A stretch of 64,000 bases of DNA from Bacteroidales bacterium (GCA_016938685.1 JAFGUD010000528.1:1-64000), one strand, 5' to 3'. Positions 251-18,753 are shown, counted from the first letter of the stretch. Numbers and translations: made by a program. The notes: generated by a model from the sequence alone, not told the origin.

Positions 251-288
251 TTGTCTCTTCAAATTCTTCGGAGTAGTACAAAGTTGGG
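251..288. repeat. partial, inverted copy of the dispersed palindromic repeat
   Basis: TTCTTCGGAGTAGTACAAAGTTGG matches the reverse complement of CCAACTTTGTTCTACTCCGAAGAA in copy A with one mismatch. Confidence 0.6.
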
Positions 289-314
289 TGTAATTTAAAA
301 GAAAACGCTATTCA

Positions 315-1109
315 TTAACAAAATCCCAATTTAGTATTCATTCTTACGTCTTTCAATTTATCATTTATAGGTTGAGGGTACTGAATATCAGTTAGAAACA
401 AACCGTTTGGTAATACAGAAACTCCGGCAGCCGATCGGTTTTGGGCTTCTATAATTGCCTTAAAATCTTCGATTGAAATTTTACTTTGTCCCACATCCAG
501 CATTGTGCCAACAATACTACGCACCATATTTCTTAAAAATCTGTCGGCTTTTATTTCAAAAACAAGAAAATTGCCGGTTTCTTTCCATTCAGCTTTAAAA
601 ATTACACAATTACTTGTTTTATTGTCGGAATGAAGTTTTTCAAAACTCTTGAAATTTTTGTAATCAAATAATATTTTGCACGCTTCGTTCATTTTTTCAA
701 CATTAAGTTTATGTGGAAAAAACAATGAAAAATCACTGTAAAAAGGTGTTTTTTGCTTTGCAATGAAATAATTATAAGTTCTGTAAAGAGCCTGAAAACG
801 ACTGTTGAAGTTGTTTTCAATTTCAAATATTTTGTAAATTACAATGTCTTTTGAAAGGTATCCGTTCAGGTTTTTAGTAAGTTTTTCAGTGTCTGTTATT
901 TCAAAATTAGAATCAAAATCAGCAATATAAAAAGTAGCATGAACGCCAGTGTCTGTTCTTCCGGCGCCTGTAATACAAATTTTTTGGCGTAAAATGACAC
1001 TCAAAGCAGTTTGTAAATCTTCCTGAATAGTTTTTGCATTCGGCTGAATTTGCCAACCATGAAAATTTTTGCCGTTATAAGCTAATGCAATTAAATATTT
1101 GTAAATCAT
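315..1109 (-). CDS. truA: tRNA pseudouridine synthase A
   Basis: 264 aa; YNGKNFHGWQIQPNAKTIQEDL and GAGRTDTGVHA (catalytic Asp) motifs, typical TruA C-terminus. Confidence 0.95.
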   Translation of the reverse strand: MIYKYLIALAYNGKNFHGWQIQPNAKTIQEDLQTALSVILRQKICITGAGRTDTGVHATFYIADFDSNFEITDTEKLTKNLNGYLSKDIVIYKIFEIENNFNSRFQALYRTYNYFIAKQKTPFYSDFSLFFPHKLNVEKMNEACKILFDYKNFKSFEKLHSDNKTSNCVIFKAEWKETGNFLVFEIKADRFLRNMVRSIVGTMLDVGQSKISIEDFKAIIEAQNRSAAGVSVLPNGLFLTDIQYPQPINDKLKDVRMNTKLGFC

Positions 1110-1113
1110 TGTA

Positions 1114-3282
1114 TTAAAATTTCACCGCTAAGATAATAATATCATCTGTTTGGCGAGCATTTTGTTTCCAGTTTTTCCAATTTTCAATCAAAATAATCTT
1201 TTGGTCGGTTAATGGAAGTACTTGGTTTTCAGATATTAACTCACGAAATTGTTTGATGCCGAATTTTTTAGATAAATCCATAGAAATCTGATCGTAAAAT
1301 CCATCACTAAAAATGTAAATTGTATCGTTGTTCTTTATTTCTAAGTAATTGTCGGTAAAAGGTTTTTCTTTTATGTATGCCGCAATTGGTTGTTTGTCGG
1401 CTTTAAGTTCCGTAAGATTATTATCTCTAAAATGGTAAAGAGGACGATAAGCTCCTGCGAAGTTAATTTCTTGTTTTTCTTCATCGTACATTACCATCGC
1501 AATGTCCATTCCGTCTTGAATAGTTCTTTGATCTGAGCTTTGTTTTAATACATTTTTAACAAGGTTTCTTACTTTATTCAGGGTTTCGGCAGCGGTAAGT
1601 TGTACGTCATCTCTAAGAACTTCTTTAAGTAAAGTCATGTTCAAGATACTCATAAGTGCTCCGGGAACTCCATGTCCGGTACAATCAGCAACAGCCAGAA
1701 TTGATTTTTTTTCAAATTTTTTAAAGAATAAAAAGTCGCCGCTGATAATATCTTTTGGCATATTTATAAGCATTGCATCAGAAAAAGTTTGTTTTAATTC
1801 GCTTATTTCAGGCAAAATGGCAGTCTGAATTCTCTTTGCGTAATTTATGCTTCCTTGAGTATCAATTTGGTATTTTTCTAATACAGTACGTTGATTTTCA
1901 ATTTCTTTATTTCGTTGATTTAAAACATCGTTTTGAGTTAATATTTCTTCTTTTTGTTGCATTATTTCCTGATTTTTGGAAAACAACATTTCAAAGTGTC
2001 TTTTACGTTGGCGCAAAATACTGAAAAGCATTATCAATAAACCTAAAAATAAACCTAATGCTATGGTAATGAATATGTTATAAAGTTTTTGGCGCTGAAT
2101 GATTAAATCTTGTTTAGCTTGTTTTTCTATTAAAATTTGATTCTCTTTTTCTTGTCTTTCCACATCAAATTCCGATTGGAGCGAAGCAATATTTTGTTGA
2201 GTTTCGGATTTTGCTATTGAATCGTTCAGATTTTTGTATTTCATCAAGTTCAAAAAAGCTCCTTCAAAATTATTGAGAGCAGAATCGCTCTTGTACATCC
2301 ATTTGTATGCTTGAGATTCAAATTCCAATGCTCCAATTTCATGTGAAACAACAATACAAGAATCGAGATATTCTTTGGCACGAACATAAAGGCCTTCTCC
2401 AAAATACAAACTAGCAAATGAAACATAAGATTGAGCAAGACCTCTACGGTTTTGAATTTGTTTGTTTAGTTGGATTGATTTGTTGTAATATTCTTTGGCT
2501 AAATCAAATTCATCGCTAAGTCCAAATAGTCTTGCCAAATTTGCACTGGTTTCAGCTAATTGTTCGGTAAAACCAATTTCTTCGGAATAACTTTCTGCAA
2601 TTTTTAAATACTTATACGCAGAATCTAAATCGTCATAATATTCAAGATATACTGAGCCAATATTGTTTGAAGAAAGAGCGATTCCATATTCACTTTTTAT
2701 TTCATTGTAAACAGTAAACGATTCCTCGTAAAATTCAAGAGCTTTTTCGTAATCTTCTAGTAGATAATAAACGCCTCCTATATTGTTGAGAGTTACGCCA
2801 ATATAAACTTTATTGCCAAGTTCTTCGGTATATCTGAGTGATTTAAGAAAGCAGTCGAGGCATTCATCGTAAATTGCTCTGTAACAGAACATATTTCCCA
2901 GTTCTCCCCAGGAGGCAGCAAGATAAAAAGTATCTTGTATTTCGGCAAATTCTTTAATAGCTTCTTCAAGATAATAAACAGCACTATCGTACTTATCGTA
3001 ATAATTTAACATCGAACCTTTGAAAAAGCTTGTAGCTGCAATTAAGTATGTGCTGCCGGTTTTTTGCGCAAGACTGTAGGCTTTATTTACGTACATCAAA
3101 TGTTCTTCGTCGCCGTTAAAATATTCTTTCGAAATTTCAAGATAAAGTTCAACTTTTGTGCTGTCGTTAGTTTCTTTTGCAATTAAATTTTTTAAACTAT
3201 CAATAGAGTCAGCAAAAATAAATTGATTTAAAGACAAAAGAAAAAGAAGGATAAAAAGTGGTTTTATTTTATATATATTCAT
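1114..3282 (-). CDS. TPR repeat sensor / SpoIIE-type PP2C serine phosphatase, membrane anchored
   Basis: signal peptide, multiple TPRs, TM segment (NIFITIALGLFLGLLIMLFSIL), coiled coil, ADCTGHGVPGALMS and QTDDIIILAVKF motifs. Confidence 0.9.
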   Translation of the reverse strand: MNIYKIKPLFILLFLLSLNQFIFADSIDSLKNLIAKETNDSTKVELYLEISKEYFNGDEEHLMYVNKAYSLAQKTGSTYLIAATSFFKGSMLNYYDKYDSAVYYLEEAIKEFAEIQDTFYLAASWGELGNMFCYRAIYDECLDCFLKSLRYTEELGNKVYIGVTLNNIGGVYYLLEDYEKALEFYEESFTVYNEIKSEYGIALSSNNIGSVYLEYYDDLDSAYKYLKIAESYSEEIGFTEQLAETSANLARLFGLSDEFDLAKEYYNKSIQLNKQIQNRRGLAQSYVSFASLYFGEGLYVRAKEYLDSCIVVSHEIGALEFESQAYKWMYKSDSALNNFEGAFLNLMKYKNLNDSIAKSETQQNIASLQSEFDVERQEKENQILIEKQAKQDLIIQRQKLYNIFITIALGLFLGLLIMLFSILRQRKRHFEMLFSKNQEIMQQKEEILTQNDVLNQRNKEIENQRTVLEKYQIDTQGSINYAKRIQTAILPEISELKQTFSDAMLINMPKDIISGDFLFFKKFEKKSILAVADCTGHGVPGALMSILNMTLLKEVLRDDVQLTAAETLNKVRNLVKNVLKQSSDQRTIQDGMDIAMVMYDEEKQEINFAGAYRPLYHFRDNNLTELKADKQPIAAYIKEKPFTDNYLEIKNNDTIYIFSDGFYDQISMDLSKKFGIKQFRELISENQVLPLTDQKIILIENWKNWKQNARQTDDIIILAVKF

Positions 3283-3370
3283 GAGTTTGTTGTCAGATTT
3301 TTAAACATTGTTGAAATAATGTCAAGTAAGTTTTATTCTATCAAATAACATTCCAATAGTGCTAGATAGA

Positions 3371-3400
3371 TTTGTTTCTCATGGAAATTTTGTAATTTTG
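3371..3400 (+). promoter_or_regulatory. Bacteroidota-type promoter for the 3417..4112 gene
   Basis: TTTG (3371-3374)-N18-TAATTTTG (3393-3400). Confidence 0.65.
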
Positions 3401-3416
3401 TTGAAAAATAATTCTC

Positions 3417-4112
3417 ATGAGTAAAATACCGGACATAAGCTGTGAAATCGAAAAAACTCAGTTTGACAAAAAAGCTCAAGGTGCTTTTGTTGATTATCTG
3501 AAAATTACTCAAAATGAAAAAAATGTAGAAATTATTCAGAAAAAGTTTGATCCTTATGAGCAAAAAGAGACAATTGAAGAATTATCAGGTAAAATAATTG
3601 CGTTTGACAAACATCAAAAATTTGCTAAAATAAAACAAAATGATGGTTCTTTTAGGTGGTTTGATTACGACAAAAAAACTTTTGACATGAGCAGATTGGA
3701 AAAGTTCTTTTATTTTAAAATAAATAATTTTAAGTACAATAATGCTACATTGAATACACTGATAAAGTTTATGAATATTGCCGTTTCAGTTGCTACAATC
3801 GAAGGTTTTGCTTTCTTTTTTATCGATTCTCCGGAGATAAAAGATAATCTTAAAATCCAAAATTCAAAAGTAGTAAAAGGTTATAGTGCTACTTCAAAAT
3901 ACTATAAATCAGAAGATTACAAAGAATTGAGAATGACGTTAAATGTACCGGCGACTACAATATTTGATGTGGAAATTGGAGTTAATTTTTTGGATTACGA
4001 TCAAGGATATGTTCGTTTATTGGGGCTTAATGAGATATCTAAGATAATTTTCGATAAAATTTTGCGATTTTTTATGCAAAATCATAATTTTACAGTAGTA
4101 AATAAGAAATAA
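3417..4112 (+). CDS. hypothetical protein, orphan; possible small OB/cold-shock-like segment
   Basis: 231 aa ORF with good promoter upstream and hairpin downstream; no family recognised with certainty. Confidence 0.75.
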   Translation: MSKIPDISCEIEKTQFDKKAQGAFVDYLKITQNEKNVEIIQKKFDPYEQKETIEELSGKIIAFDKHQKFAKIKQNDGSFRWFDYDKKTFDMSRLEKFFYFKINNFKYNNATLNTLIKFMNIAVSVATIEGFAFFFIDSPEIKDNLKIQNSKVVKGYSATSKYYKSEDYKELRMTLNVPATTIFDVEIGVNFLDYDQGYVRLLGLNEISKIIFDKILRFFMQNHNFTVVNKK

Positions 4113-4113
4113 A

Positions 4114-4147
4114 ATTGTAGCATCGAATTGTTTTTCGATGCTACAAT
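4114..4147. terminator. bidirectional terminator between convergent genes
   Basis: ATTGTAGCATCGAA-TTGTTT-TTCGATGCTACAAT, perfect 14-bp stem. Confidence 0.75.
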
Positions 4148-4155
4148 AGAAAAAT

Positions 4156-5061
4156 TTATTCTAAAATATCATCATCGCCACCTCGATCAGTTGAACCATT
4201 ACGTTTTTTAGCCCAATTAATATTACCAAATGCACCAACAAGAATTATTGGATCCTGAGTAAATTTTCCTCCGTTTTCCATTGAATAGTATTGTCTGCCT
4301 TCTACGTAAATGTTTAGATTATTAGTTTGAACAACAATTTTAGCACCAGGTCCCCAGTATTGTTTTCCTTTGTAGGAATTGCCCATTGCTGTTTCCATGC
4401 TACGTAAATATTGATCTGATTCATTTGTAAGCATAAAATTCATTTGCAAAGCAGCTCCAATCAAGAAATTTCCTAATACCGGAACATCTTTTTTAACATA
4501 AGAATATTGTGTTCCAAGATTTACATTAAAAACAGAAAAACGAAGAAAATCCTGTGAAAGAGTAGTATCCATAGTATTTGCAACATTGTAAGGAGTAAAA
4601 TACATTTCTCCAAAAAACATTACATGCTGTAACTGATCTTTTCCACCTCTGTAAAATTTTGAAAGATAGTTTTTGTGCCAACCTATATGTAAAACCGCGT
4701 CTTCTTGAAAAGGCATTTTATATACAGAAAAACTTTTTGCAGGCTGCTCAATAAGTTTGTTCCAGGTAAAAGGATCCCAGTCGATAATTATTGGATTGAT
4801 ATCAATAATAAACTGATGAAATGTTTGAGTTCCTCCATCGTTTACTTTGTAAAGAGCATTTACAATAAAACCGGATTGAGTTGTACTTGACAAGTTATCA
4901 ATTAGTCCGGCACCATTAGAGCCGTCAAGTGAAAAACCGCCATAAAGTGCTACGTTTATATCACGAGCTTCTACTAGTAAATCAACAGGTATAAAGTGCT
5001 GATTGTAACCAACTTTTGCTAAAAGCAAAATTCCTAAAAGTAAAGTAAGAATTTTTTTCAT
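4156..5061 (-). CDS. exported hypothetical protein, probable outer-membrane beta-barrel
   Basis: signal peptide MKKILTLLLGILLLAKVGYNQ and alternating aromatic beta-strand pattern. Confidence 0.6.
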   Translation of the reverse strand: MKKILTLLLGILLLAKVGYNQHFIPVDLLVEARDINVALYGGFSLDGSNGAGLIDNLSSTTQSGFIVNALYKVNDGGTQTFHQFIIDINPIIIDWDPFTWNKLIEQPAKSFSVYKMPFQEDAVLHIGWHKNYLSKFYRGGKDQLQHVMFFGEMYFTPYNVANTMDTTLSQDFLRFSVFNVNLGTQYSYVKKDVPVLGNFLIGAALQMNFMLTNESDQYLRSMETAMGNSYKGKQYWGPGAKIVVQTNNLNIYVEGRQYYSMENGGKFTQDPIILVGAFGNINWAKKRNGSTDRGGDDDILE

Positions 5062-5140
5062 AATTTTTTATTTAGTTGTTTTTGTTTTTATAAATGATTA
5101 TAAAATTTAATTTTCATGATTCAGACCACTGTATTCTCTC

Positions 5141-7630
5141 TTACGGATTTACTTTCCAGTTTTTCCATGTGTTTTGAATTGCCGGACTTACGTTTATTGT
5201 TGGCGATTGTTCTTTTAACCCATTTTGAGGATTAAGAGCAGTTGTTGTTACATCGTCGATTATTTTTGTTGCCAGTTCGCCATAACTAATATTTCCTTTA
5301 GTGTCTTTAAGATTTTTAAATAAAAAGTAAGTAAATAAACCGTGACGTTTTTCAAGGTATTCCTGCGAAATTTGTTTTTCAGAAGAAGCAGCAAAAACAA
5401 GCAGATTTCCGCCAATATTTGCGTCATTAGGAGTACGTTTTAGTCCGGTTTTTGCATTTATCAGCAATTGTCCGGTTTTACCACCGCCACTGAAACAAGC
5501 ATCTAAAAATACAATCACTTTTTTGTCGCCTTCAGGGTTTATTTGGGCATAAAAATCTGACAATTTTACTCCAAAATCGTTAATATAATCAGAAGTTACT
5601 CCAACCGGAACTATAAATGCTTCTCCTTCTTCGTTTTGTGTTCCGTGACCGCTGTAATAAACATAAAATTCGCCGTCAGATTTTGCTTTTATCAGTTTGG
5701 CAAAATTGTCTATATAAATCTTTATGTAAGTTGCATTTGCGTCTTCAATGTAATAAATATGATTGTTGTCGTCAGGTACACCAAGAATATTAATTGCATA
5801 TTGTTTAAAAATTTTAGCATCGTTGATAGAATATTTTATATCTACCATATCAGAACCGTGTTTGATATAATTAGAGTTTCCGATAATCAAAGCATAATGG
5901 TTAGAATAATTTTTGCCTGAATTTGGAATATTATTGTCAACATCAACATCAATATTATTGTTGTCTTGATTGTCATTACCATCTTCTTCGTGGTTTGGAC
6001 CAATAACGATAGGATCAAATTCATTTACGATAACCTGATCGTTAAAAATAACCGGTTTGCTTGCATCAAAGAAGTATGTTTTGCCATTTGCAGGGTTTTT
6101 TATTGTCATCTGATAAATTTCCAGCTTATCGTCTTGTGTTAAATTAAATTTTATTGATGAATACACCAGTTTTCCGAGATTTTTTTCAAAAATTTCAGCT
6201 TCTTCGATAGGAACGGGTAGATAAATGGAATTGTAGTAAGTAAGATTAAATCTAAAAATTTCGCTTTCGCTATCGTAATCAAGTGTGGTAGTTTTTACAT
6301 CATTTTGAAAAATAGGAATTCCTATTTGTCCAAAAAATTCATCCATTAGTTCATAAATTTTTTGTTGTCTTGTGCTTTCGTTTACTCGAATTTTATAATC
6401 TTCAATTTTTTCGTATTTACCTTTTGCCTCCCACAAAAAGATTGCGTTTTGCACATAAGAAGTTGCTCTATCTCGAACGGAAAAACGTAATTTAACAAGC
6501 CAAATGTCTTTTTTCCCTGCACCTTTTGATTCGGTATAGCCCAAAACAGCAAATCCGCCATCAAAAGTTTTGGTTATCGAAAAAGCTTTATCTTCGTACA
6601 TTCCGCCAAAAGTTTCGTCCCAAATAATATTTCCGTCTTTGTCAATGTCAATAATCCAGTAATCCCAGTCGCTGACTCCTTTTGATTTTGTGCTTCCTGC
6701 AATTATGTAGCTGTTTTCGTTATCTTGAATAATATTATAAGCATCATCATTTTGACTGCCGCCATAAGTTTTATCCCAAAGAATTTTTCCGGTTTCGTCA
6801 ATTTTAAGCACCCAAATATCAATCCAACCGGCGCCTTTTGATGATGTGTTAGCCAGCACTAAATAACCACCATCTTTTGTAGCTATAATATCTGAAGCTA
6901 TATCGGTTCCACCACCGCCATTATTTTGTTCCCAAACAACATCGCCTTTTGAGTTAATTTTAAAAATCCATACATCTTCAAAACCCATATCTTCAAAAGT
7001 TCTTCCTCCGGCAATAATAAATCCTTTGTCGGGAGTTTCGATTACACAGTTAATAATATTTTTGAAGTTATTTCCGTATTCTTTTTGCCATTGTTTATTT
7101 CCGTTTGCATCGGTTTTTACAATTGTTGCTTTGGAGTTAAAACTTTCGCCATAAGCTGAATTTCCAATTAAAAGATAACCACCGTCTGATGTTTCAATAA
7201 TATTAGTTGTATAATCTTCTTCTCGTCCATGAAATTGTTTTTGCCATTTTGAGCTGAAATTTCCATCAGTTTTAAATAAAAGAAAATTTTTACCTTCGGC
7301 TTCTGCCGAACTATTTATTCCGGTTGTAATAAAACCGTTGTCTTTAGATGGAAGCAATTTAATAAATAGAGGTTCGTAAATATTTTTGTAAATTTTTTCC
7401 GTTGTTATATTTCCTCTGTCATCAGTTTTCATCAACCAGAGGTAAGCTCCAAATCCTTTTGATTGAGAAGCAGAAATAGCAAATCCATGATTTGGCATTT
7501 CGATAATAGAGTAACCGATGTCGTTTTTCTTTTCTCCATAAGTTTTATCCCATTCTAGCTGAGGTTTTGTTTGTCCATTAAGAGAAAATATTGTGAATAA
7601 AAGAGCTAAAAGAGCTAATGTTTTTTTCAT
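5141..7630 (-). CDS. exported caspase-like (C14) protease with N-terminal beta-propeller-like WDKTYGG repeats
   Basis: signal peptide; about 6-7 repeats of WDKTYGG..D.A..I...DGGY..AG; caspase start YALIIGNSNY, His motif YYSGHG, Cys motif FLDACFSGGG. Confidence 0.88.
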   Translation of the reverse strand: MKKTLALLALLFTIFSLNGQTKPQLEWDKTYGEKKNDIGYSIIEMPNHGFAISASQSKGFGAYLWLMKTDDRGNITTEKIYKNIYEPLFIKLLPSKDNGFITTGINSSAEAEGKNFLLFKTDGNFSSKWQKQFHGREEDYTTNIIETSDGGYLLIGNSAYGESFNSKATIVKTDANGNKQWQKEYGNNFKNIINCVIETPDKGFIIAGGRTFEDMGFEDVWIFKINSKGDVVWEQNNGGGGTDIASDIIATKDGGYLVLANTSSKGAGWIDIWVLKIDETGKILWDKTYGGSQNDDAYNIIQDNENSYIIAGSTKSKGVSDWDYWIIDIDKDGNIIWDETFGGMYEDKAFSITKTFDGGFAVLGYTESKGAGKKDIWLVKLRFSVRDRATSYVQNAIFLWEAKGKYEKIEDYKIRVNESTRQQKIYELMDEFFGQIGIPIFQNDVKTTTLDYDSESEIFRFNLTYYNSIYLPVPIEEAEIFEKNLGKLVYSSIKFNLTQDDKLEIYQMTIKNPANGKTYFFDASKPVIFNDQVIVNEFDPIVIGPNHEEDGNDNQDNNNIDVDVDNNIPNSGKNYSNHYALIIGNSNYIKHGSDMVDIKYSINDAKIFKQYAINILGVPDDNNHIYYIEDANATYIKIYIDNFAKLIKAKSDGEFYVYYSGHGTQNEEGEAFIVPVGVTSDYINDFGVKLSDFYAQINPEGDKKVIVFLDACFSGGGKTGQLLINAKTGLKRTPNDANIGGNLLVFAASSEKQISQEYLEKRHGLFTYFLFKNLKDTKGNISYGELATKIIDDVTTTALNPQNGLKEQSPTINVSPAIQNTWKNWKVNP

Positions 7631-7651
7631 AATATATTGTTTTTTGTTTGT

Positions 7652-7700
7652 AGATTGAAGACTGAAGTCAGAAGACCGAAGTCAGAAGACTGCCGACTGT
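7652..7700. repeat. degenerate heptad repeat (GACTGAA family) between the two caspase genes
   Basis: GATTGAA GACTGAA GTCAGAA GACCGAA GTCAGAA GACTGCC GACTG. Confidence 0.8.
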
Positions 7701-7701
7701 A

Positions 7702-10700
7702 TTAAGGATTAATTTTCCAGTTTTTCCATTCGTTTTGTATTGACGGGTTTATTTTTATTGTTGGTGTTTGAGTTCTTAGGTTTTTAGAAGGAACCAATGT
7801 TTCGGACTTAACGTTGTTGATAACATCTTCTCCAATTTCGTTGAAAGTTTTATCTGAGTTCATATTTTGTAATTCTTTGAGTAAAAAATAAGTAAACAAT
7901 CCATGTTGTTTTTCAGGATATTCTTGTGAAATTTCAGTTCCTGTAGAAGCTGCAAAAACCAGAATATTTGTTGGCACAGCATTATTTTTAGATTGTCTTA
8001 ATCCAACCTTGGAATAAGGAACAAGAACTCCTGTTTTTCCGCCACCGCTAAAACAAGCATCTATAAAAATATAAGTTTTTTTGTCGGAGCCTGAATTTAA
8101 TTGTGCATAAAAATCGTCTAAGCTTAAAGCGTAATCTTCTACATATCTGGATTTTACATCAACCGGAAGAATATAAGAGTTTTTGGAAGAATCCAAAGTG
8201 CCGTGACCACTATAATAAACGAAAAATTCGCTTCCGGCAGGTTTTAATTTTATAAGTTCAGAAAAATTTTCAAGATATTCTTTTAATTCTAAGGCTTTTG
8301 CATCTTCAAGATAATATATATGTCTTTCGTCGTCCGGAATTCCAAGTGTATTTACGGCGTATTTTTTGAAAATTCGGGCATCATTTAACGAATAGCTTAT
8401 ATCAACAACGTCAGAACCATTTTTTTGATAATTTGCATTGCCGATTATAAGAGCATATCTATTGGCATATATTTTTGAAGATTTTGGAATATTTTGGTCA
8501 ACATCAACAATTTCATTGGGGATATTTTCGATAATAACATGTTCGTTTTCATTTTCGTTTGTGTTATCAACTTTATGAATAAAACCACTTTCTTCAAGTT
8601 CTTTGTTAATTGCAAATGATTTTATTTCGGTAAAACCGTACAAACCTGAATTATCCTTAGCTTTGATTGTGAATTTTAACTCACTGTCGGTAAATTCGCT
8701 GTTTACAAAATAACGATAAATAATTGTTACATATTTTCCGGCGTTAATTTCTGAAAAAATAGGATTTTGTCTTATTAATTGACCGTTTTCCATAACACCA
8801 AGAAACATGACACCAGATTGATTGTTGATTACATCAATGTTTATTTTTTCGGCGTTTCCTTGTCCAATATTCTGAACAATGAGTTTTAGTTCAAGTATTT
8901 CATTGATATCGATTTGGTTATTTGGATTTGCGGATTGGTTTTCGATAATTGCATACTGAGCCAAAATGAGGTCAGGTTTATTAAATGATTTGGTTGTAAA
9001 TTTAAGCTGTTTTCCTTGAATATTGACCATAAAATGCGGTTCAACAACATCAATTTTAATAGTAGCTTCGGTGTTTTTTAAAGACATTTGTCCCGTAACA
9101 TCAATTGTGACTGTTTTTTTGCCATTATTTGCAGGAATAATAGGGAAATTAACCACAGCAGGAAGAGTAATTCCAGAAGTAGTTGTTGATAAATTAACAT
9201 AAACATCGTTCGCATCTCCGGGACCTACATTTTCTATTGTAATACTTAATTTTGCTGTTTCTCCGGCATCTAATACGTTTTCAGAAAAACTAATATCTCC
9301 AATTTTCAGAATTGGTGGCATTACTACTTCAGTTACATTTTTGGGGAATTCAAAACTAATATCATAAAAAGAGTAAGAATTTCCTTCTGCTGGTTCAATT
9401 AGGTCTATATTTGTTGTCGTTTCCGGAATTTTATCAAAATAAAGCGTAAAATTTGAAGTATATTTATATGTTTTATCTTTACAAATAAGAATATTTTCTG
9501 CTTTTTGAAGGAAATATTTTTTGTTCGTTTTTTTATCAATAATGTATGTGTTGTTTTGAATACAAGAAGTGTTGTTACCTGTTTGATCAATGTTTACAAC
9601 TGTGTAGTTGTCATCATTTCCTAAGAAATTTATTTTTAGATTATCGGGATTTTTAGCAACATGTAGATATTCTGCTTCGGTTAATTTTCCGTGACTTTGA
9701 TTGTAGTTTTTATCGTAATTAACTGCAATAGAGTAGATTAATGCGTAATCGCCCTGGCCTTCGTCTTCTGTGTTCTGAATTGAGACTGTGTTTGGACCAT
9801 ATTGTATGTAATTTTCAATATCAAAACCATAAGAGTCAAGATTTTCGCTGTAAAAAGAAGATTTAGAATTCAATTGCCCCACAAAAACTTCTTTTTCGTT
9901 AACAAGAATTTTAAAATCGGTATAATCTGCATCACTGTCATAATTGTAATCTTTTCCAATAATGAAAAGTTTGCATTTATTTATATCGTAATAATCATCA
10001 AGTTTAAAGTTAAAAGTTTGTTTTGTGCCACTTGTGTAGTTCCTATTTACAATGAAATTATCATTTGTGTTTATGTTGAAAACATCTGAAACAGTAGCAA
10101 TATTGGTCGTTGTGGTGTTATTTGTGCTACTGCAAAAAGAGGAAATAACATATCCGTCGGTAACTTTTTCTTTGACCCAATCTACCGGAAATACATCATC
10201 TTTGTAATAAGTTTGGTTTAAGTTCAAACCACCTGACATAACAACTAACCATTTACCTTCGCCATAAGCAACATCGGTTACATCAAAGTCTTCTTCCCAT
10301 TTTTCTTTTATCCAATCAGCAGGAATATCAACGTTAGGATTAAAAGTTTGACCGATAATTCCAGTTCCTTTTGCCATAGAAAAAGCCCACATTCCGTCGC
10401 CATATTCAATATTTGTAATTCGATAGTTCAAATCCCAGTATTTTTGGATTTCGGTTTTCATATCTTCGTAATTAGACTTAGTACGCCAAATGTCATCTTC
10501 GTATCCAAGCCCTTTTGACATAATAATAAGCCATTCTCCTTCGCCAAAAGCAATATCTGTTATATAGAAACCTTTATCCCATTTTTCCTGAATTGTTTCT
10601 TTTGGAAAAATATTGTGTTTTATCCATGTTTGGTCAGTTATTTTACTGTTAGAACTAAAAGTTGTAATCCAGTAATAACCATTATATTCAATGTTTGAGA

Positions 10701-10896
10701 CATAATAACCTTTGTCCCAATATTCTCTGATATCAGTTTTCATATCCTCAAAATAATATTGAGAAGTGTAAAAACTATTACTTTCTCCAGTGTTTTTTGA
10801 ACAAACTAAAAACCAATTTTGACTTTTTACAATTTGAGTAGAAAAAGAAAGAAGAGTAAAAACAATAAGTATTTTAAAAAATAAATAACGATTCAT
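7702..10896 (-). CDS. exported caspase-like (C14) protease with N-terminal W/KEKW repeats (DUF7477-like) and CARDB-like middle region
   Basis: signal peptide; five repeats such as EKWDKGFYITDIAFGEGEWLIIMSKG; CARDB-like GDISFSENVLDAGETAKLSITIENVGPGDA; caspase motifs YYSGHG and IDACFSGGG. Confidence 0.87.
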   Translation of the reverse strand: MNRYLFFKILIVFTLLSFSTQIVKSQNWFLVCSKNTGESNSFYTSQYYFEDMKTDIREYWDKGYYVSNIEYNGYYWITTFSSNSKITDQTWIKHNIFPKETIQEKWDKGFYITDIAFGEGEWLIIMSKGLGYEDDIWRTKSNYEDMKTEIQKYWDLNYRITNIEYGDGMWAFSMAKGTGIIGQTFNPNVDIPADWIKEKWEEDFDVTDVAYGEGKWLVVMSGGLNLNQTYYKDDVFPVDWVKEKVTDGYVISSFCSSTNNTTTTNIATVSDVFNINTNDNFIVNRNYTSGTKQTFNFKLDDYYDINKCKLFIIGKDYNYDSDADYTDFKILVNEKEVFVGQLNSKSSFYSENLDSYGFDIENYIQYGPNTVSIQNTEDEGQGDYALIYSIAVNYDKNYNQSHGKLTEAEYLHVAKNPDNLKINFLGNDDNYTVVNIDQTGNNTSCIQNNTYIIDKKTNKKYFLQKAENILICKDKTYKYTSNFTLYFDKIPETTTNIDLIEPAEGNSYSFYDISFEFPKNVTEVVMPPILKIGDISFSENVLDAGETAKLSITIENVGPGDANDVYVNLSTTTSGITLPAVVNFPIIPANNGKKTVTIDVTGQMSLKNTEATIKIDVVEPHFMVNIQGKQLKFTTKSFNKPDLILAQYAIIENQSANPNNQIDINEILELKLIVQNIGQGNAEKINIDVINNQSGVMFLGVMENGQLIRQNPIFSEINAGKYVTIIYRYFVNSEFTDSELKFTIKAKDNSGLYGFTEIKSFAINKELEESGFIHKVDNTNENENEHVIIENIPNEIVDVDQNIPKSSKIYANRYALIIGNANYQKNGSDVVDISYSLNDARIFKKYAVNTLGIPDDERHIYYLEDAKALELKEYLENFSELIKLKPAGSEFFVYYSGHGTLDSSKNSYILPVDVKSRYVEDYALSLDDFYAQLNSGSDKKTYIFIDACFSGGGKTGVLVPYSKVGLRQSKNNAVPTNILVFAASTGTEISQEYPEKQHGLFTYFLLKELQNMNSDKTFNEIGEDVINNVKSETLVPSKNLRTQTPTIKINPSIQNEWKNWKINP

Positions 10897-11055
10897 AATT
10901 TTTGTTTTTAAAAAGTCAAAATTAGTAAATATTGAAATTACATTAAAAAAGCAATAATGATGTGAATTAAAAGATGAAATATAAAACTGAAAATCAACTT
11001 AATATGTGTTTTGTTTAAATCATGTAAAAAAAACTGATCTAGGCAAAGCGACAAC

Positions 11056-11147
11056 CAACTTTGTTCTACTCCGAAGAATGAGGAGTCTCTAACTCGTGAT
11101 AAACGTATCGTAGTCTAGACTCCTCCTATCGTCGGAGTGACAAATTG
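11056..11147. repeat. dispersed palindromic repeat, copy A
   Basis: ACTCCGAAGAATGAGGAGTCT (11068-11088) inverted against AGACTCCTCCTATCGTCGGAGT (11117-11138); near-identical second copy at 31953-32040. Confidence 0.85.
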
Positions 11148-11217
11148 ACTATTGTGACAACGGATTAAGCCCTTGTTGATTCTTAATTTATATTAATATC
11201 GTAATTATAACAAAAAT

Positions 11218-11257
11218 GAAATAATAGTTAATGACAATCATCACTAACTATTATTTC
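11218..11257 (-). terminator. probable terminator downstream of the 11266..12537 gene
   Basis: GAAATAATAGTTA / TAACTATTATTTC perfect 13-bp stem, 14-nt loop. Confidence 0.6.
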
Positions 11258-11265
11258 AAAAATAT

Positions 11266-12537
11266 TTATTTCATAGGAGTAACAATAAAATCAGTTCCGG
11301 CAATATCAACGTTGAAATTTGTCACACCGGCATTTTTTAGCAAATCTATCATCATCAGTTTCAAACGCAATCTGTCTAATAAATAAGTTCTTCCTTCCCA
11401 TGATTTACCAATTTGTTGACCGTTGTTTCTCCAAACAGCCGGATTTATTGATGATTCGGCAAAAAGTTTACAATCGAGCATAGATTGTTCAAGAGACAAT
11501 TCAATATTTTGAGTTAGAAGTGAATCTGAGATTTTTAAAGAAAATAACATTCCGTCTCTAAGATAACTAGAATATCTTTTAGCAATATCATACATATAAT
11601 TATCAATATCGCGGGCAAATACTTCTTTTAAAGCAAGATCAACTGCATCGTAATCATTTGAAGCTCCATCAACTGTATATTTTGAATCATAAATAAGAAT
11701 TTCTGTTGCTGTATTGGTGTTGTAACCAATTAAGTGAAAGTTCACAATTCTTTGATCTGTGTTAGGAACTTTTGTAATTGTGATTGTATCCATACTGAAA
11801 ACAATGTCAACTTGTCGACTACGGTTAGCGTTATTGGTAATTGATGTGACAAAATCTAAGTATTTGTTGCCAGTAGCATAAGATTGAAAACCTTCAGCCG
11901 GGTTATAATCAGCAGGTTTTGGTTGTAGTTTTGCTCTTTCAAGCATTCTTAATTCAATAACATTATCAAATTTGTATTTTGGTTGCAGACACATTGTGTG
12001 AAAACCATTTAAAGCACTATTATACAGTTCTTTAGTTGGTGCATCTCCGTCTCTTTCTATGTAAGGGTTAACAATAAAAACTACAGAGTATTTTATAAAA
12101 GTGTTTATGTAATATTGTAAAAACTCTATCAAATCAGGATTGTATTTTGTGCGGTAAACCATACAAGTATATAGTCCGTTTTCGGCTCTGTATTTCTTTT
12201 TAGTTTTAAAAACATCGTATTCGTCTTTTAATAAAAATACAACTTCACCTGCAAATTCAGCAAGAACAGAATCAACTCTTGGATTATCCAAATACATTTG
12301 ATTACCAATAAGTTCACGAAGAATAAGTACTTTTGTATTGTATTTCGCTTCTGCTTTCGAAGAGCCATAAGCGGTAATTGGTTCAAAAAACTCTTTGTCT
12401 TTTAAATTGTCGCGGTCATCTTTCATTTGTTTGTAGTTTTTGAAGTCACTACAACCGCCTTTTCCTATTTGAGCGCTTATTTGTAAAGATAAACTCAGTA
12501 AAATAAGAAAAACTGTTAATGAGATAATTCTTTTCAT
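11266..12537 (-). CDS. exported hypothetical protein (possibly DUF6175-like)
   Basis: signal peptide MKRIISLTVFLILLSLSLQISAQ; 423 aa; 10 nt from the upstream gene; family assignment uncertain. Confidence 0.6.
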   Translation of the reverse strand: MKRIISLTVFLILLSLSLQISAQIGKGGCSDFKNYKQMKDDRDNLKDKEFFEPITAYGSSKAEAKYNTKVLILRELIGNQMYLDNPRVDSVLAEFAGEVVFLLKDEYDVFKTKKKYRAENGLYTCMVYRTKYNPDLIEFLQYYINTFIKYSVVFIVNPYIERDGDAPTKELYNSALNGFHTMCLQPKYKFDNVIELRMLERAKLQPKPADYNPAEGFQSYATGNKYLDFVTSITNNANRSRQVDIVFSMDTITITKVPNTDQRIVNFHLIGYNTNTATEILIYDSKYTVDGASNDYDAVDLALKEVFARDIDNYMYDIAKRYSSYLRDGMLFSLKISDSLLTQNIELSLEQSMLDCKLFAESSINPAVWRNNGQQIGKSWEGRTYLLDRLRLKLMMIDLLKNAGVTNFNVDIAGTDFIVTPMK

Positions 12538-12547
12538 AATTTTTAGA

Positions 12548-13591
12548 TTAGAAAGTTAATATAATTGTTTTAGTTTGAATATCGCTTAGTGTTTTTATGT
12601 CATCTATTAGTTGAATACACTCATCAGCCTGAATTATTGTTGTTTCGTAGCCGTCTATGAATTTTTTCGTATAATATTTATCAATATCAATTTTATCTTT
12701 TGAAATAATAATTTTCACAAAAGAGTATTGACCTGCTTCAACAGTCTCGTAAAAATTAAGATTGTATGCAAAAAAATCTTCGTAAGTACCTTTTTTAAAT
12801 TCTGTATTGTCGTTTTCTATTGCCCAAAGAAATTTATGTTCAGTATCTCCAGGATCATAAAATAAAGCATAAATATATGCGTTTTTAGATAGTTCAAGTT
12901 TAATGTTGTAGTCTACATCATATTTTGTTTTGTATACTTGTCCTATTCCATCTATTTCTGTGCTTGATTCTTCGGTTTTATTTTTTGTTAAATTTACAGA
13001 TTTCAGAATTACGTTATCTTTTTTAAATTCCATTAAATTTTTGAAAGGATCAGCAGTAATACTACTTCCATCTAGTTCTTCAAGAATACTAATAGAGTTT
13101 GTTTTTACCTGATAATCTTTAAAAATAAATTCTGCCTGAGAATGAATATGACTCATTGTAAATTTAGACAAAGAAATTCCGCTTTTATTTAGGCTGTATT
13201 CCCCTGTTAGTGTATAGTCGTTTTGTTTTGTTTTTTCTATTTCTTCATTGGTAGGCATTTCAATGTCGTAAGGAGAAGACAGTTTGTAAAAAACCTGTCT
13301 TAAAATAACATTATTTAGGTCTTTTTGTAAATACTTTGTAATTCGGTAACCAAGTTCTTTGGAAAGATTTGTTTGCTCTCCGTTTGAATTGTAAAGAAAA
13401 TTGACATGAATAAGTACAGTATCTTTGTTATTACAAGCTTTTTTAATGTCTTTATTTTTTATAAGAATTTCATTTGCAAAAAAATTTGAAAATTCACTTG
13501 AGATTTCATCAAGAACTTTGCTTTGTTCCTGACTAAAAAGGTTGATATTTAATGAAAAAAAAGCGAGCAGAAGTATTATTTTAAATTTCAT
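12548..13591 (-). CDS. exported protein with C-terminal DUF4384-like domain
   Basis: signal peptide; region DVDYNIKLELSKNAYIYALFYDPGDTEHKFLWAIEND...SFVKIIISKDKIDI resembles the DUF4384 pattern. Confidence 0.55.
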   Translation of the reverse strand: MKFKIILLLAFFSLNINLFSQEQSKVLDEISSEFSNFFANEILIKNKDIKKACNNKDTVLIHVNFLYNSNGEQTNLSKELGYRITKYLQKDLNNVILRQVFYKLSSPYDIEMPTNEEIEKTKQNDYTLTGEYSLNKSGISLSKFTMSHIHSQAEFIFKDYQVKTNSISILEELDGSSITADPFKNLMEFKKDNVILKSVNLTKNKTEESSTEIDGIGQVYKTKYDVDYNIKLELSKNAYIYALFYDPGDTEHKFLWAIENDNTEFKKGTYEDFFAYNLNFYETVEAGQYSFVKIIISKDKIDIDKYYTKKFIDGYETTIIQADECIQLIDDIKTLSDIQTKTIILTF

Positions 13592-13747
13592 AAAAGCAAG
13601 TTTTAGGTTTAGTGAATAATAGATATTAAATTTAACGTAAAACTAAAACCTTTGATTTAGAAAAAAAAATTTCAGAAGCTATTTTGTTGATTTAATGTAT
13701 TAAAAATGTATTTAGATGTGAATAGGTTTTGAAAATATGCAAAAAAA

Positions 13748-13773
13748 AACTGCCTAACAATTGTTAGACAGTT
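13748..13773 (-). terminator. intrinsic terminator downstream of PQQ-like propeller gene
   Basis: AACTGcCTAACAATTGTTAGaCAGTT hairpin followed on the minus strand by a T9 run. Confidence 0.8.
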
Positions 13774-13779
13774 AAAATA

Positions 13780-15273
13780 TTAGTCTCCAAAACAATAAAG
13801 ATTTCCGTCCCGACAAGCCACGTATATTCTACCGTCCCAAACAAAAGGAGTTGCTTCAAATGAACCTAAATCCTGATGTTGTAAAAGTTTAAAATTCATA
13901 TCTTTATCAAATTCAAATAAATAAATACCTTCGTAAGTAGGTGCAATTATTTTATTACCAACAATAATCGGTGTAGAAATAGATGGTCCTGTATGGTATT
14001 TAAAAGCTAATTCCGGCATAGGATAAGTATGTTTTAACATAGGCCCTTTTGTTGTTTTATTTTCCGCTATTTTGTCATGTCTCACAACATATAAATTTCC
14101 GTCAATTGCAAGGAAAGCAGATAATTTAGGCATCGTGTCGGCAGCATAATAATCATTTATACTTGCAGAGCCTATAATTCCGCCAGCCCAATAAGCGTGA
14201 GTTTTAGTTTCTGTGGGGAAATACCAAACAACGCATTCATCGGGAGATAAAGAGGGATTTATTTTCATTGCGCCACCTTGTCCCGGAATATATTCTTTTT
14301 CTATGGTAATAATCAAACATTCGTCATCGGTAACAATTGGAGAACCATCCATATCAGCTTCGGTATCAAAAACCCAATCAATTTCTTTCTTTTTAATATT
14401 GTAACCAAAAAGATGCCCTGAACCGGAAGTAATGTATACATATCCGTTTAAATAACTTGGTGATGATTCTGTAACTAGATTTCCGCCGTGAGTATTTGCA
14501 TCAGATGCGTAAAAAAGCGTATCTACATCATATATAAAAGGTTGTAGAACTCCGTCGCGCATTTCTGCATGATTTGGATTTGGATCGAAAACAATAAATA
14601 ATCCGTTTTCAAGTCCAAGATAGGCTGTGTCGTTTACAATAAGAGCAGAACCGTCAACATCACGACTGTAAGAACGCATTTTTTTGCTGCTATAAATCCA
14701 TTTTTTTTGGAATGATCTGAAAGCTATACATTTATAACTTTGAACAACTTTTGAGTCAGAGCTATACATTGCTCCTCTTCTGCTTCCCTGCATGATATAA
14801 AATTCATCATCAGGGCTTGTTGGATTTGGATTGCGCCAGATAGAACCTGTTCCTTTTATAACATCATCAAATTCAAATTCATTCATTAATTTCCCGTCAG
14901 AAACCCTGATTTTTTTAAGGTTGTGATCGTATGCTCCTTGAATAATATACAATGTGTCGTTGTATTTTATCATCAAAGGTTGACCTGTCCAGCCGGCACC
15001 CGACCAAGTTTTGTGGATTGTTCCTACCCAGGTTTTACCTGTTCCTAATAGATGTTTCCATTTTATATTAAGATGAGAAGGTGCATAATTCCCGTAGAAA
15101 TATCTTCGTTCATTTCCTAAATACGTTCGGTTTATTATAAAAGTAGATTTTGCTTGTCTAACTTGAATTGTAATGTCTGAATTTTTGACAGGTTTATCCA
15201 TATTACCATCAGCGCACGAAGAAAAAAGTACGGAAAGTATTATTATTACAGAATAAAATATTTTTTTTAGCAT
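13780..15273 (-). CDS. lipoprotein with PQQ-like beta-propeller repeats
   Basis: lipobox-like LFSSCADG; repeated blade motifs (GSPIVTDDE, STPIIVGNKIIAPTYEG, ATPFVWDGRIYVACRDGNLYCFGD). Confidence 0.8.
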   Translation of the reverse strand: MLKKIFYSVIIILSVLFSSCADGNMDKPVKNSDITIQVRQAKSTFIINRTYLGNERRYFYGNYAPSHLNIKWKHLLGTGKTWVGTIHKTWSGAGWTGQPLMIKYNDTLYIIQGAYDHNLKKIRVSDGKLMNEFEFDDVIKGTGSIWRNPNPTSPDDEFYIMQGSRRGAMYSSDSKVVQSYKCIAFRSFQKKWIYSSKKMRSYSRDVDGSALIVNDTAYLGLENGLFIVFDPNPNHAEMRDGVLQPFIYDVDTLFYASDANTHGGNLVTESSPSYLNGYVYITSGSGHLFGYNIKKKEIDWVFDTEADMDGSPIVTDDECLIITIEKEYIPGQGGAMKINPSLSPDECVVWYFPTETKTHAYWAGGIIGSASINDYYAADTMPKLSAFLAIDGNLYVVRHDKIAENKTTKGPMLKHTYPMPELAFKYHTGPSISTPIIVGNKIIAPTYEGIYLFEFDKDMNFKLLQHQDLGSFEATPFVWDGRIYVACRDGNLYCFGD

Positions 15274-15288
15274 TTAGTGAAATTTGTG

Positions 15289-15319
15289 CAAATTTATTTT
15301 TAAAAAAGTTTCGGACAAA
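15289..15319 (-). promoter_or_regulatory. Bacteroidota primary-sigma promoter for the 13780..15273 gene
   Basis: minus strand TTTG-N19-TAAATTTG just upstream of the start codon. Confidence 0.7.
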
Positions 15320-15353
15320 TAATCTTTTCAACAAATCTTGAAATTTAATAAGG

Positions 15354-15383
15354 TTGTCTTTTTTTTAAATTTGATTATTTTTG
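15354..15383 (+). promoter_or_regulatory. Bacteroidota-type promoter for the CapA-family gene
   Basis: TTG (15354-15356)-N19-TATTTTTG (15376-15383); the track's TTG start at 15381 lies inside this -7 box. Confidence 0.65.
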
Positions 15384-15407
15384 TCGATCAAAACAAAATA
15401 TTTTATT

Positions 15408-16544
15408 ATGAACAAAATTTTTATTTCAATTTCAGCATTGCTGATTATTATAAGTGCTTCACTAATATTTATTAGCTGCAAAGACAACAATAAGGCTACA
15501 TCTGATATTAATCAAATTGTAGTTGCCGGTGAAGAGAACATTATTGAAGAAGTAATGGTAAAGGATACAATTACAATTGTAGCTGTTGGTGACATGATGT
15601 TAGGAACAAATTATCCTTCAAGCCCTAATTATTTGCCACCAAATGACGATTATAATTCTTTGTTTAACGACCTTGTTCCATATTTGAAAGACGCAGATGT
15701 TACTTTCGGGAACTGTGAAGGAACCTTTTCGGATAAACCTGAATATGCAAAACATTGTAATGATCCTCAATGGTGCTATCGTTTCAGTATGCCTACAAAA
15801 TACGTGAATGGCTTTGTTGATGCCGGTTTTGATGTTGTTAGTATTGCAAATAATCATGTGCATGATTTGGGTTCGTATGGAAAACAAAGTACAATTAAAA
15901 CTTTGCAAGATGCAGGTTTAAATTTTGCAGGAGTTTGTGATATTCCTGTTGATACATTTACAATAAATGGAGTAAAATATGGTTTTTGTGCATTTGCTCC
16001 AAATGAAGGTACTTGTCAAATAACAGATTACAAAAAAATGCAGGAAACTGTAAGAATGTTGAAAGAACAATGTCAAATTGTAATGGTATCGTTTCATGGC
16101 GGAGCAGAAGGCAGTAAATATGAGCATGTACCTCGCGAATATGAATATTTTTTGGGTCAAAATAGGGGTAATGTTTACGAATTTGCACACCTTGCAATTG
16201 ATGCCGGAGCAGATGTTGTAATAGGACAAGGACCTCATGTTACAAGAGGCATAGAGTTATACAATGGTAAATTTATTGCTTACAGTTTGGGAAACTTCTG
16301 TACTTACCGAAGATTTAATATTCAAGGAGTTAACGGTTTTGCTCCAATTGTAAAACTTTGGCTTGATGACGAAGGGAATTTTATAAAAGGAAAAATTACG
16401 CCGGTTTATCAGGATAAATTTAAAGGTACTTTCTACGATGACCAAAAAAGAGTAATCAAAAGAATGCAGGAACTTACAAAACAAGATTTTCCTGAAAGTG
16501 GACTTTTAATTACCGACGAAGGACAAATAATAATTAATAATTGA
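15408..16544 (+). CDS. CapA-family protein (poly-gamma-glutamate synthesis / metallophosphatase-like), lipoprotein
   Basis: GDMMLGTNYPS, SIANNHVHDLGSYG, SFHGGAEG, GADVVIGQGPHVTRGIELYNGKFIAYSLGNF; start moved from 15381 to ATG 15408. Confidence 0.88.
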   Translation: MNKIFISISALLIIISASLIFISCKDNNKATSDINQIVVAGEENIIEEVMVKDTITIVAVGDMMLGTNYPSSPNYLPPNDDYNSLFNDLVPYLKDADVTFGNCEGTFSDKPEYAKHCNDPQWCYRFSMPTKYVNGFVDAGFDVVSIANNHVHDLGSYGKQSTIKTLQDAGLNFAGVCDIPVDTFTINGVKYGFCAFAPNEGTCQITDYKKMQETVRMLKEQCQIVMVSFHGGAEGSKYEHVPREYEYFLGQNRGNVYEFAHLAIDAGADVVIGQGPHVTRGIELYNGKFIAYSLGNFCTYRRFNIQGVNGFAPIVKLWLDDEGNFIKGKITPVYQDKFKGTFYDDQKRVIKRMQELTKQDFPESGLLITDEGQIIINN

Positions 16545-16570
16545 TAGTTAATAATTAATAGTTAATAATT
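16530..16570. repeat. degenerate 7-bp tandem repeat (ATAATTA/ATAGTTA), overlaps the CapA gene 3' end
   Basis: units ATAATTA ATAATTG ATAGTTA ATAATTA ATAGTTA ATAATT. Confidence 0.85.
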
Positions 16571-16694
16571 CAATATTGTTTAGTTAAGAAAAAATGCCCC
16601 AGCGGGGCTTAATAATTGTAAAAAAAACATACAGGTACCCAAACCATTTGTCCCTGCGGGGCAATATATTAAATCTACTAACTAAACGACATTG
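16571..16694. repeat. MITE-like palindromic element with 17-bp imperfect terminal inverted repeats
   Basis: left CAATATTGTTTAGTTAA (16571-16587) vs reverse complement of right end CAATGTCGTTTAGTTAG (16678-16694), 14/17; inner inverted TGCCCCAGCGGGGC / GTCCCTGCGGGGCA. Confidence 0.6.
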
Positions 16695-16824
16695 ATTAAT
16701 AATTGATAATAATCAACTATATTATGTTTGGTGAGATAATGGCTGCCTTAATGGGCAAAATATTGATTTACTAAATAGTGTTTTAGATCTAAAAAATAAT
16801 TTCAAAAAAAACCAAAAACTGATT

Positions 16825-16900
16825 AACTGGTTAACTGGTTAACTCGATAACTGGTTAACTCGATAACTGGCAAACTGGTTAACTGGTTAACTCGATAACT
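16825..16900. repeat. degenerate 8-bp tandem repeat (AACTGGTT / AACTCGAT), 9.5 units
   Basis: AACTGGTT AACTGGTT AACTCGAT AACTGGTT AACTCGAT AACTGGCA AACTGGTT AACTGGTT AACTCGAT AACT, ends 11 bp before the ATG at 16911. Confidence 0.95.
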
Positions 16901-16910
16901 TATAGGAAAA

Positions 16911-18683
16911 ATGAAAAAAATAAATACAATTATTATTCTACTGTTTTTAAGCATAATTGGCTTTTCGCAGACAGAAATAACAAGTAAAGAAGTTCAAAAT
17001 CATATTGATTTTCTTGCTTCAGATGACTTAAAAGGTCGTTTCCCCGGCACAGAAGGTGATGAAACCGCAGCAAATTACATTCGCGACGAATTTAAAAATT
17101 TAGGCTTAGAATTGTTGTTTGACGATGGTTTTCAGTACTTTGACATACAAACAAAATCTAAGGTTGTTGGTTCAAAATCACTTCAAATTGGTAGTTTTTC
17201 TTGCAAATACGTAGAAGAATATCAGCCTTTGATGTTTTCGGCATCAGGTAAATTTTCCGGTAAAGCAGTTTTTGCAGGATACGGAATGACAATTGAAGAC
17301 GAAAATCAACCTTGGAATGACTATGAAAATCTTGATGTTAAAGGCAAATGGGTTGTGATTTTCAGAGGGAAACCAAATATTGCAGCTTATCCTGAAACGT
17401 ACTTTGATAAATACACAATAGAATATTCAAAAGTGCTTACAGCCTCTGATTTAGGCGCAGTTGGAGTTGTTTTTATAAATGGGTACAACGATTATCCAAA
17501 AGATAAATTGATTGAACCTTGTTTCGGAAGATTTTCAGAAAAAGCTCAAATTCCTGCTTATTCAGTAATAAGATATACCGGCGACAGATTGCTTGGTTTT
17601 GCTGGCAAAAAAGTCGGTGAGGTAGAAAAACTCATCAATGAAACAGGCAAAACTGTTTCGTTTGATTTAGACGTGACAATAAAAAATGACCTTACAATTG
17701 AGCCTGTTATGGTAAAAACTCACAATGTTGTCGCAGTTTTGGAAGGAAGCGATGAAAATTTAAAAGACGAATATATTGTAATTGGCGCACATTACGATCA
17801 TCTTGGTTTTGGTGGCTGTAACTCAGGCTCAAAAATGCCGGATAAGATTGCAATTCATAATGGTGCTGATGACAATGCATCAGGTGTTGCAGGAGTTTTG
17901 GAAATAGCAGAATATTTAGCTGCAAACAAAAATCTACTTGGTAGAAGTATTATTTTTATCGCATTTGGAGCAGAAGAAAGAGGTTTATTGGGCTCAAATT
18001 ATTTTGTGGAAAATCTCCCTGTTGACAAAGACAAAATTTATTGCATGTTGAACATGGATATGATTGGAAAATATAATGGGAAATTGACTGTAATGGGAGC
18101 AGGAACAGCTGCTGAATTTAATGATGTTTTTAACAGTGTTGATTATGACACAACAACGCTAAACGTTAAATTACATGATAAACCGTATTCCGGTTCCGAC
18201 CATGCTTCTTTTATAAGTCATGGTATACCGGCGGTTTTCTTTTATGGCAGTTCAGGGAAAGATTATCATACTCCATTTGATGATGCGGAGTTTATAAATT
18301 CTGAAAGCGCTGCTATTATTATGCAATATGTTGCAAATTCTGCAATAAAATTTTCTATTAAAGAAGGTAATTTAACTTTTGTTGATGTAAAAGACGAAAA
18401 TAATAATAATAATCACGGATATGGAATGAGAGTTAAACTTGGTGTTGTTCCTGCTTTTGAAGATACAGACAATAAAGGGATGAAAATTAGCGGCGTTACA
18501 GATGATAGCCCTGCTCAAAAAGGCGGAATGCAAGCTAATGATATTATTACTGCAATAAATGATGAACCAGTTAGTAATATTTATGATTACATGGAAAGAC
18601 TTAAAAAAATAAACCCCGGCGACAAAACAGTAATAAAAATAAATCGTGGTGGAGAAGAAATTGAAATTGAAATACAGTTTTAG
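16911..18683 (+). CDS. exported M28 family metallopeptidase with PA and C-terminal PDZ domain
   Basis: signal peptide; GAHYDHLG, NGADDNASGVAGVLEIAEYL, FGAEERGLLGSNYF, SGSDHASF; PDZ SPAQKGGMQANDIITAINDEPV. Confidence 0.93.
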   Translation: MKKINTIIILLFLSIIGFSQTEITSKEVQNHIDFLASDDLKGRFPGTEGDETAANYIRDEFKNLGLELLFDDGFQYFDIQTKSKVVGSKSLQIGSFSCKYVEEYQPLMFSASGKFSGKAVFAGYGMTIEDENQPWNDYENLDVKGKWVVIFRGKPNIAAYPETYFDKYTIEYSKVLTASDLGAVGVVFINGYNDYPKDKLIEPCFGRFSEKAQIPAYSVIRYTGDRLLGFAGKKVGEVEKLINETGKTVSFDLDVTIKNDLTIEPVMVKTHNVVAVLEGSDENLKDEYIVIGAHYDHLGFGGCNSGSKMPDKIAIHNGADDNASGVAGVLEIAEYLAANKNLLGRSIIFIAFGAEERGLLGSNYFVENLPVDKDKIYCMLNMDMIGKYNGKLTVMGAGTAAEFNDVFNSVDYDTTTLNVKLHDKPYSGSDHASFISHGIPAVFFYGSSGKDYHTPFDDAEFINSESAAIIMQYVANSAIKFSIKEGNLTFVDVKDENNNNNHGYGMRVKLGVVPAFEDTDNKGMKISGVTDDSPAQKGGMQANDIITAINDEPVSNIYDYMERLKKINPGDKTVIKINRGGEEIEIEIQF

Positions 18684-18700
18684 ATAAAAAATAATTTAGA

Positions 18701-18728
18701 ATGAAAGACTGAGAACTGAACGACTGAA
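18701..18728. repeat. degenerate heptad/octad repeat (GACTGAA family)
   Basis: GAATGAAA GACTGAGA ACTGAAC GACTGAAA. Confidence 0.65.
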
Positions 18729-18753
18729 ACACAAAACAAAATAAAAAATAAAC

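Follow-up and report, generated by a model that had tools for sequence, protein, structure and literature searches.

Most discussion of bacterial caspases treats them as enzymes of the cytosol that serve in stress and cell death; what might a pair of them do outside the cytoplasm? The question is raised by a 64,000-nucleotide stretch of DNA from a Bacteroidales bacterium (GCA_016938685.1 JAFGUD010000528.1:1-64000; the whole stretch is called "the window" here), in which five minus-strand genes between positions 4,156 and 13,591 encode two adjacent caspases, a DUF4384-type protein, a protein that we call "e" and a probable outer-membrane barrel. The five open reading frames (ORFs; 4156-5061, 5141-7630, 7702-10896, 11266-12537 and 12548-13591) match exactly those given in a preliminary description of the window. 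Each begins with a signal-peptide-like sequence (charged start, hydrophobic core, no lipobox), as had been claimed for both caspases, and from these signal peptides only we infer an envelope location for the products. The likeliest reading, which we put at about even odds, is that the locus specifies an Arg/Lys-specific caspase module working outside the cytoplasm, with platforms that are interchangeable at the N-terminus and with the DUF4384-type, e and barrel proteins as envelope partners.

Architecture of the caspase pair

Both caspases matched Peptidase_C14 above its curated cut-off (E = 1.2e-16 and 2.8e-19), with the Pfam model, scored as a whole, covered over almost its full length, and their C14 modules are 55% identical. 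As previously described, the His (YYSGHG) and Cys (DACFSGGG) motifs are intact in both proteins, which also share a D-D--IP linker and a P-IQN-WKNWK-NP C-terminus. Their N-terminal halves had been called unrelated, and domain and structure-database matches bear this out. In the propeller-caspase (5141-7630), a WDKTYGG beta-propeller (approximately amino acids 22-390) matching the C-terminal propeller region of CylK in the PDB (4.5e-14) is followed by a linker domain (391-560) and the C14 module (563-829). The larger DUF7477-caspase (7702-10896) begins with a propeller-like DUF7477 region (Pfam PF24289, 1.1e-28; 100.6 bits against a cut-off of 27), continues with beta-rich and CARDB/immunoglobulin (Ig)-like domains and ends in the C14 module (approximately amino acids 797-1064); of the annotations proposed for it, DUF7477 is secure, whereas the CARDB match was found below threshold (0.0092). 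Its structure model (mean predicted local distance difference test [pLDDT] 70.6; caspase part ∼90) has regular strand-helix repeats, as would fit a propeller with Ig-like domains after it. DUF7477, on which no paper was found among open-licence literature, also occurs in fusions with tandem AAA ATPase domains and TPRs (L056:1992-5369, L057:2520-5591), so this front end serves quite different effectors.

An apparently exported caspase family with exchanged N-termini

A scan of GTDB genomes for relatives returned 80 loci, overwhelmingly from Bacteroidota. Most full-length relatives start with a signal peptide (a few of them of the lipoprotein type) and carry the protease nearly always at the extreme C-terminus, which suggests that exported caspases of this kind are spread across the phylum. 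C14 was found in all of 67 GTDB relatives, CARDB in 30 and WD40 in 8, and the His and Cys motifs are kept in 69 of 69 sequences when the window pair is added. N-termini across the family are WD40, propeller, DUF7477/CARDB or other. Among open-licence literature, no paper treating exported Bacteroidota caspases as a system was found. Several Bacteroidales metagenome-assembled genomes (MAGs) are rich in caspases (G174, 32 C14 matches; G018, 15; G071, 11).

In the tree, the module of the DUF7477-caspase is sister to that of a propeller-caspase encoded elsewhere in the source genome, on contig C281 (support 99/93), and not to that of its neighbour in the window; N-terminal regions have therefore been exchanged within the genus, and a simple tandem duplication of the window pair is rejected. 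The common C-terminal effector and interchangeable N-termini of the preliminary description are thus upheld, while the "sensor" or "recognition" role it gave the latter may at most be inferred. Between the orthologue pairs compared, non-synonymous change is far below synonymous change (the latter near saturation), so the genes of the locus are not chance ORFs. Relative to the protease module, the rate of change of the N-terminal region is approximately double in the propeller-caspase and only approximately 1.5-fold in the DUF7477-caspase. A fast-diversifying recognition domain was rejected in view of these modest ratios, with all parts under purifying selection and no hypervariation.

Recurrent linkage to DUF4384-type genes

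The first gene of the locus (12548-13591) encodes a divergent exported protein of 347 amino acids that had been labeled DUF4384-like. It has no match to Pfam DUF4384 (PF14326) even at E ≤ 10, and the label is supported indirectly, through its relatives: homologues found with profile A7 in four genomes (G111, G236, G038 and G070) match the family (6.2e-11, 6.5e-7, 4.3e-5 and 2.2e-4). Neighbour genes were sought order-wide in 386 genomes, with two-row profiles first and richer profiles after. Nine of 16 DUF4384-type profile hits share a strand with a caspase that is adjacent or no more than ∼2.4 kb away, in seven Bacteroidales families (f1, f17, f28, f37, f69, f70 and f110). Besides the window and G002, the linked loci are G018 (C381), G071 (C461, with two tandem WD40-caspases), G001 (C182, where e flanks the caspase on its other side), G038 (C56), G236 (C55), G070 (C133) and G111 (C43). 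With genome sizes of 3 to 6 Mb and ∼5 to 15 caspases in most of the genomes counted, a rough hand estimate puts chance linkage at <1% per hit; the profile member at G001:C182 came via a caspase neighbourhood and is hence not independent. At two loci, in G111 (L237, C43) and G070 (L234, C133), a FlgT_N-like exported protein accompanies the linked pair, and the former also carries an LpoB-like lipoprotein. The names FlgT_N and LpoB come from flagellar and peptidoglycan factors. Cyanobacterial orthocaspases carry DUF4384 and WD40 as accessory domains (PMC8283722), and the fusion of DUF4384 to the protease there, with a separate but linked gene here, suggests that the two work together.

The exact locus is a genus-level feature, found complete in one sister species only (G002; DYKL01, a cave MAG labeled Acetofilamentum). 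One G002 contig carries the DUF4384-type gene (52% identity), e (69%) and the DUF7477-caspase (61%), and another the propeller-caspase (71%) and barrel (74%); since both contig ends bear one and the same 7-bp repeat, it is probably there that the contigs break, and the gene order is that of the window. A second propeller-caspase/barrel pair in G002 (L042) means that the barrel follows the propeller-caspase twice. A single-sequence search near the 80 GTDB relatives found barrel, e and DUF4384-type proteins nowhere except in G002. Accordingly, the claim that the caspases belong with the flanking exported genes is supported as regards a linkage that recurs outside the source genome, and fails for the five-gene set beyond one congener.

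Restriction of the exact set to one genus is also what would be seen if the two caspases were only paralogues, a lineage-specific expansion in a large Bacteroidota exported-caspase family among ordinary neighbours that form no system. Seven C14 genes in the source genome and 15 to 32 in some relatives speak for such an expansion, and in G001 (JAFGXO01) a propeller-caspase (56%) stands beside a homologue of the window gene at 13780-15273 without any other locus member at that place. We nevertheless consider this explanation unlikely, given that DUF4384-type genes are independently linked to caspases in seven families, that caspase, DUF4384-type gene and barrel share one contig in G018, that e flanks a caspase in G001:C182, and that the barrel was duplicated along with the caspase in G002.

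Protein e and the barrel

Neither e (11266-12537, 423 amino acids), the barrel (4156-5061, 301 amino acids; exported and without Pfam family) nor the DUF4384-type protein received a Pfam or NCBIfam name above cut-off, and the DUF6175 family named in the preliminary description was not recovered in e, there being no Pfam match to it at E ≤ 10. A weak colinear hhalign match (E = 0.007, probability 5.6%) to the FlgT_N-like proteins found with other caspases makes e possibly a very distant member of that group. Two other candidates were rejected: a transglutaminase (TGL; E = 0.003, below cut-off) on account of the 69% orthologue, which lacks that match, and the 685-, 561- and 506-amino-acid exported neighbours in G071 and G018, to which hhalign showed no relation. 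Among the 386 genomes, the e family occurs in G000, G001, G002, G038 and G174 (plus three weak hits) and the barrel family in the same five and G018 (plus one weak hit), a strong overlap.

Several observations weigh against an integrated module. Weak hits excluded, e (5/386) and the barrel (6/386) are rare, and a caspase is not always adjacent: in G174 the two are neighbours without a caspase on a 9.4-kb contig (C395; L158:5650-8177; barrel ∼53% identical) and may form a pair of their own, and the G001 barrel stands alone. Close to half of the DUF4384-type hits lack an adjacent caspase, many of them on short contigs. Some linked caspase ORFs are interrupted (by a TAA in G018, by a split into two frames in G001, and by truncation near the end of the DUF7477-caspase in G002), which could be MAG error or decay. 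The structure model of e, from a two-row alignment, reached a pLDDT of only 35, and signal peptides were called from sequence features, not by a trained predictor.

Predicted specificity and mode of action

Two Asp residues are invariant, one in an ND-A motif and the D of DAC. The basic-specificity pocket of TbMCA2 is formed by Asp95 and Asp211 (PMC6426788), with which the pair is equated by motif, not by superposition; two acidic S1-pocket residues suited to a basic P1 are thus predicted. The L2 loop, disordered in the model, is rich in Lys/Arg (mean 5.2 per 24 residues, 21% against 11% overall; loop matched in 55 of 69 sequences). MALT1, which among solved structures matches best in both sequence and fold (metacaspase-1 is the other near relative), is Arg-specific. 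MaOC1 self-processes without calcium (PMC5756287, PMC8283722). By analogy, the window caspases are expected to be exported self-processing Arg/Lys proteases. Under the proposed module, both proteases would leave the cytoplasm by their signal peptides with one C-terminal catalytic unit held behind different beta-rich platforms (propeller, or DUF7477 with Ig/CARDB), which may tether it to an envelope partner or substrate. Self-processing would probably take place in the basic L2 loop, with cleavage after Arg/Lys as in characterised orthocaspases, and in the periplasm and outer membrane the DUF4384-type protein, e and the barrel could each provide a scaffold, a regulator or a substrate. The likely output would be regulated processing of proteins that are secreted or belong to the envelope, rather than suicide in the cytosol.

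A gingipain-like nutritional or surface protease, whose propeller/Ig region binds a polymer or cell surface while the caspase degrades or sheds extracellular proteins, would have the same export signals, the same beta-propeller and CARDB/Ig-like modules, of kinds that surface proteins commonly carry, and the same predicted basic P1 specificity. We regard it as quite improbable: no type IX C-terminal sorting-domain family in NCBIfam was matched in any of seven proteins, the linkage to DUF4384/FlgT_N/LpoB-type envelope proteins suggests the periplasm, and C14 enzymes are known to be regulated and to process themselves, unlike broad digestive proteases (MaOC1, PMC5756287). A role in phage defence or altruistic cell death, with the protease operating from the envelope, is very improbable. 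In its favour, the PADLOC caspase model matches (5e-11) and swappable N-termini resemble the sensors of conflict systems. Against it, that generic model was the only match, the EACC1-associated model (NF047832) scored 47.5 and 49.5 bits against a curated cut-off of 140, no EACC1/STAND partner was present among window ORFs nor defence genes among window neighbours, and the apparent export fits poorly.

Layout of the locus and its surroundings

A gap of 10 bp separates the DUF4384-type gene from e, and the simplest reading of the locus is two transcription units, 13591-11266 (DUF4384-type gene and e) and 10896-4156 (caspase-caspase-barrel). Terminator-like hairpins on the minus strand are placed to fit, one of 19 pairs just 3' of e (11217-11258) and one of 14 pairs 3' of the barrel (4114-4147), closing the second unit; both are assigned by position only, since a scan of the region gave few more sites (6) than the 4.1 expected by chance. 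No RNA family was found in positions 1-20000 of the window. The gap between the caspase genes holds an array of 7-bp tandem repeats (7652-7692, minus strand), and such arrays recur in other intergenic gaps (16528-16575, 21391-21422, 22047-22103 and 32151-32183) and in G002 (L040:164-330; L041:1-90), with unit sequences that differ, including in the caspase-caspase gap. Elsewhere in the window lie a lone SIR2-like protein with an Asn-rich tail (59676-60599, plus strand; SIR2_2, 3.5e-6; no PADLOC match) and three exported or membrane TPR-SpoIIE phosphatase-type proteins (1114-3282, 23965-26103 and 26106-28340).

Relation to known caspases

By their catalytic features the window caspases appear to belong to the orthocaspases (MEROPS C14B, e.g., MaOC1 of Microcystis), with which they share the p20-type C14 fold, the His/Cys dyad and the acidic specificity pocket. 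In known orthocaspases, however, accessory domains are usually C-terminal and the proteins are described as cytosolic or membrane-bound (PMC5756287, PMC8283722), whereas here the protease is C-terminal and apparently exported, and the DUF4384-type domain sits on a separate neighbouring gene. The paracaspase MALT1 has Ig-fold domains adjoining its caspase but is a cytosolic animal signalling protein, and no Pfam Ig domain (PF00047, PF13895 or PF13927) precedes p20 in the window caspases, only CARDB-like regions. Conflict-system caspases (EACC1-associated, PADLOC) have the same catalytic unit and modular accessory regions, but the window pair falls below the EACC1 cut-off, lacks STAND or defence partners and has signal peptides. 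Their sequences argue against classing them as paracaspases, EACC1-type conflict caspases or type IX cargo. The secreted YARHG-caspase of Bradyrhizobium is an earlier example of a bacterial caspase that combines a signal peptide with an extracellular domain, but it is a single sequence with YARHG at the C-terminus and no linked genes reported (PMC3355149). What is new here is that the proteins are predicted to be exported, that the protease comes at the C-terminus, that N-terminal propellers have been exchanged and that DUF4384-type, e and barrel genes are recurrently linked to the caspases.

A more specific proposal is that the locus represents an undescribed extracytoplasmic caspase signalling system of Bacteroidales, in which exported caspases with exchangeable propeller sensors, licensed in the periplasm by DUF4384-type and FlgT_N-like proteins, act on or through an outer-membrane barrel. 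We offer it as speculation with little weight behind it; if true, caspase-type signal proteolysis would operate outside the cytoplasm. More generally, the recurrent pairing of exported caspases with envelope partners hints at an undescribed extracytoplasmic protease system. A widespread, apparently exported Bacteroidota branch that keeps its catalytic dyad in all sequences examined and repeatedly lies beside DUF4384-type envelope genes points to a role other than cytosolic cell death, and this locus offers a concrete gene set with which another role for bacterial caspases may be tested.

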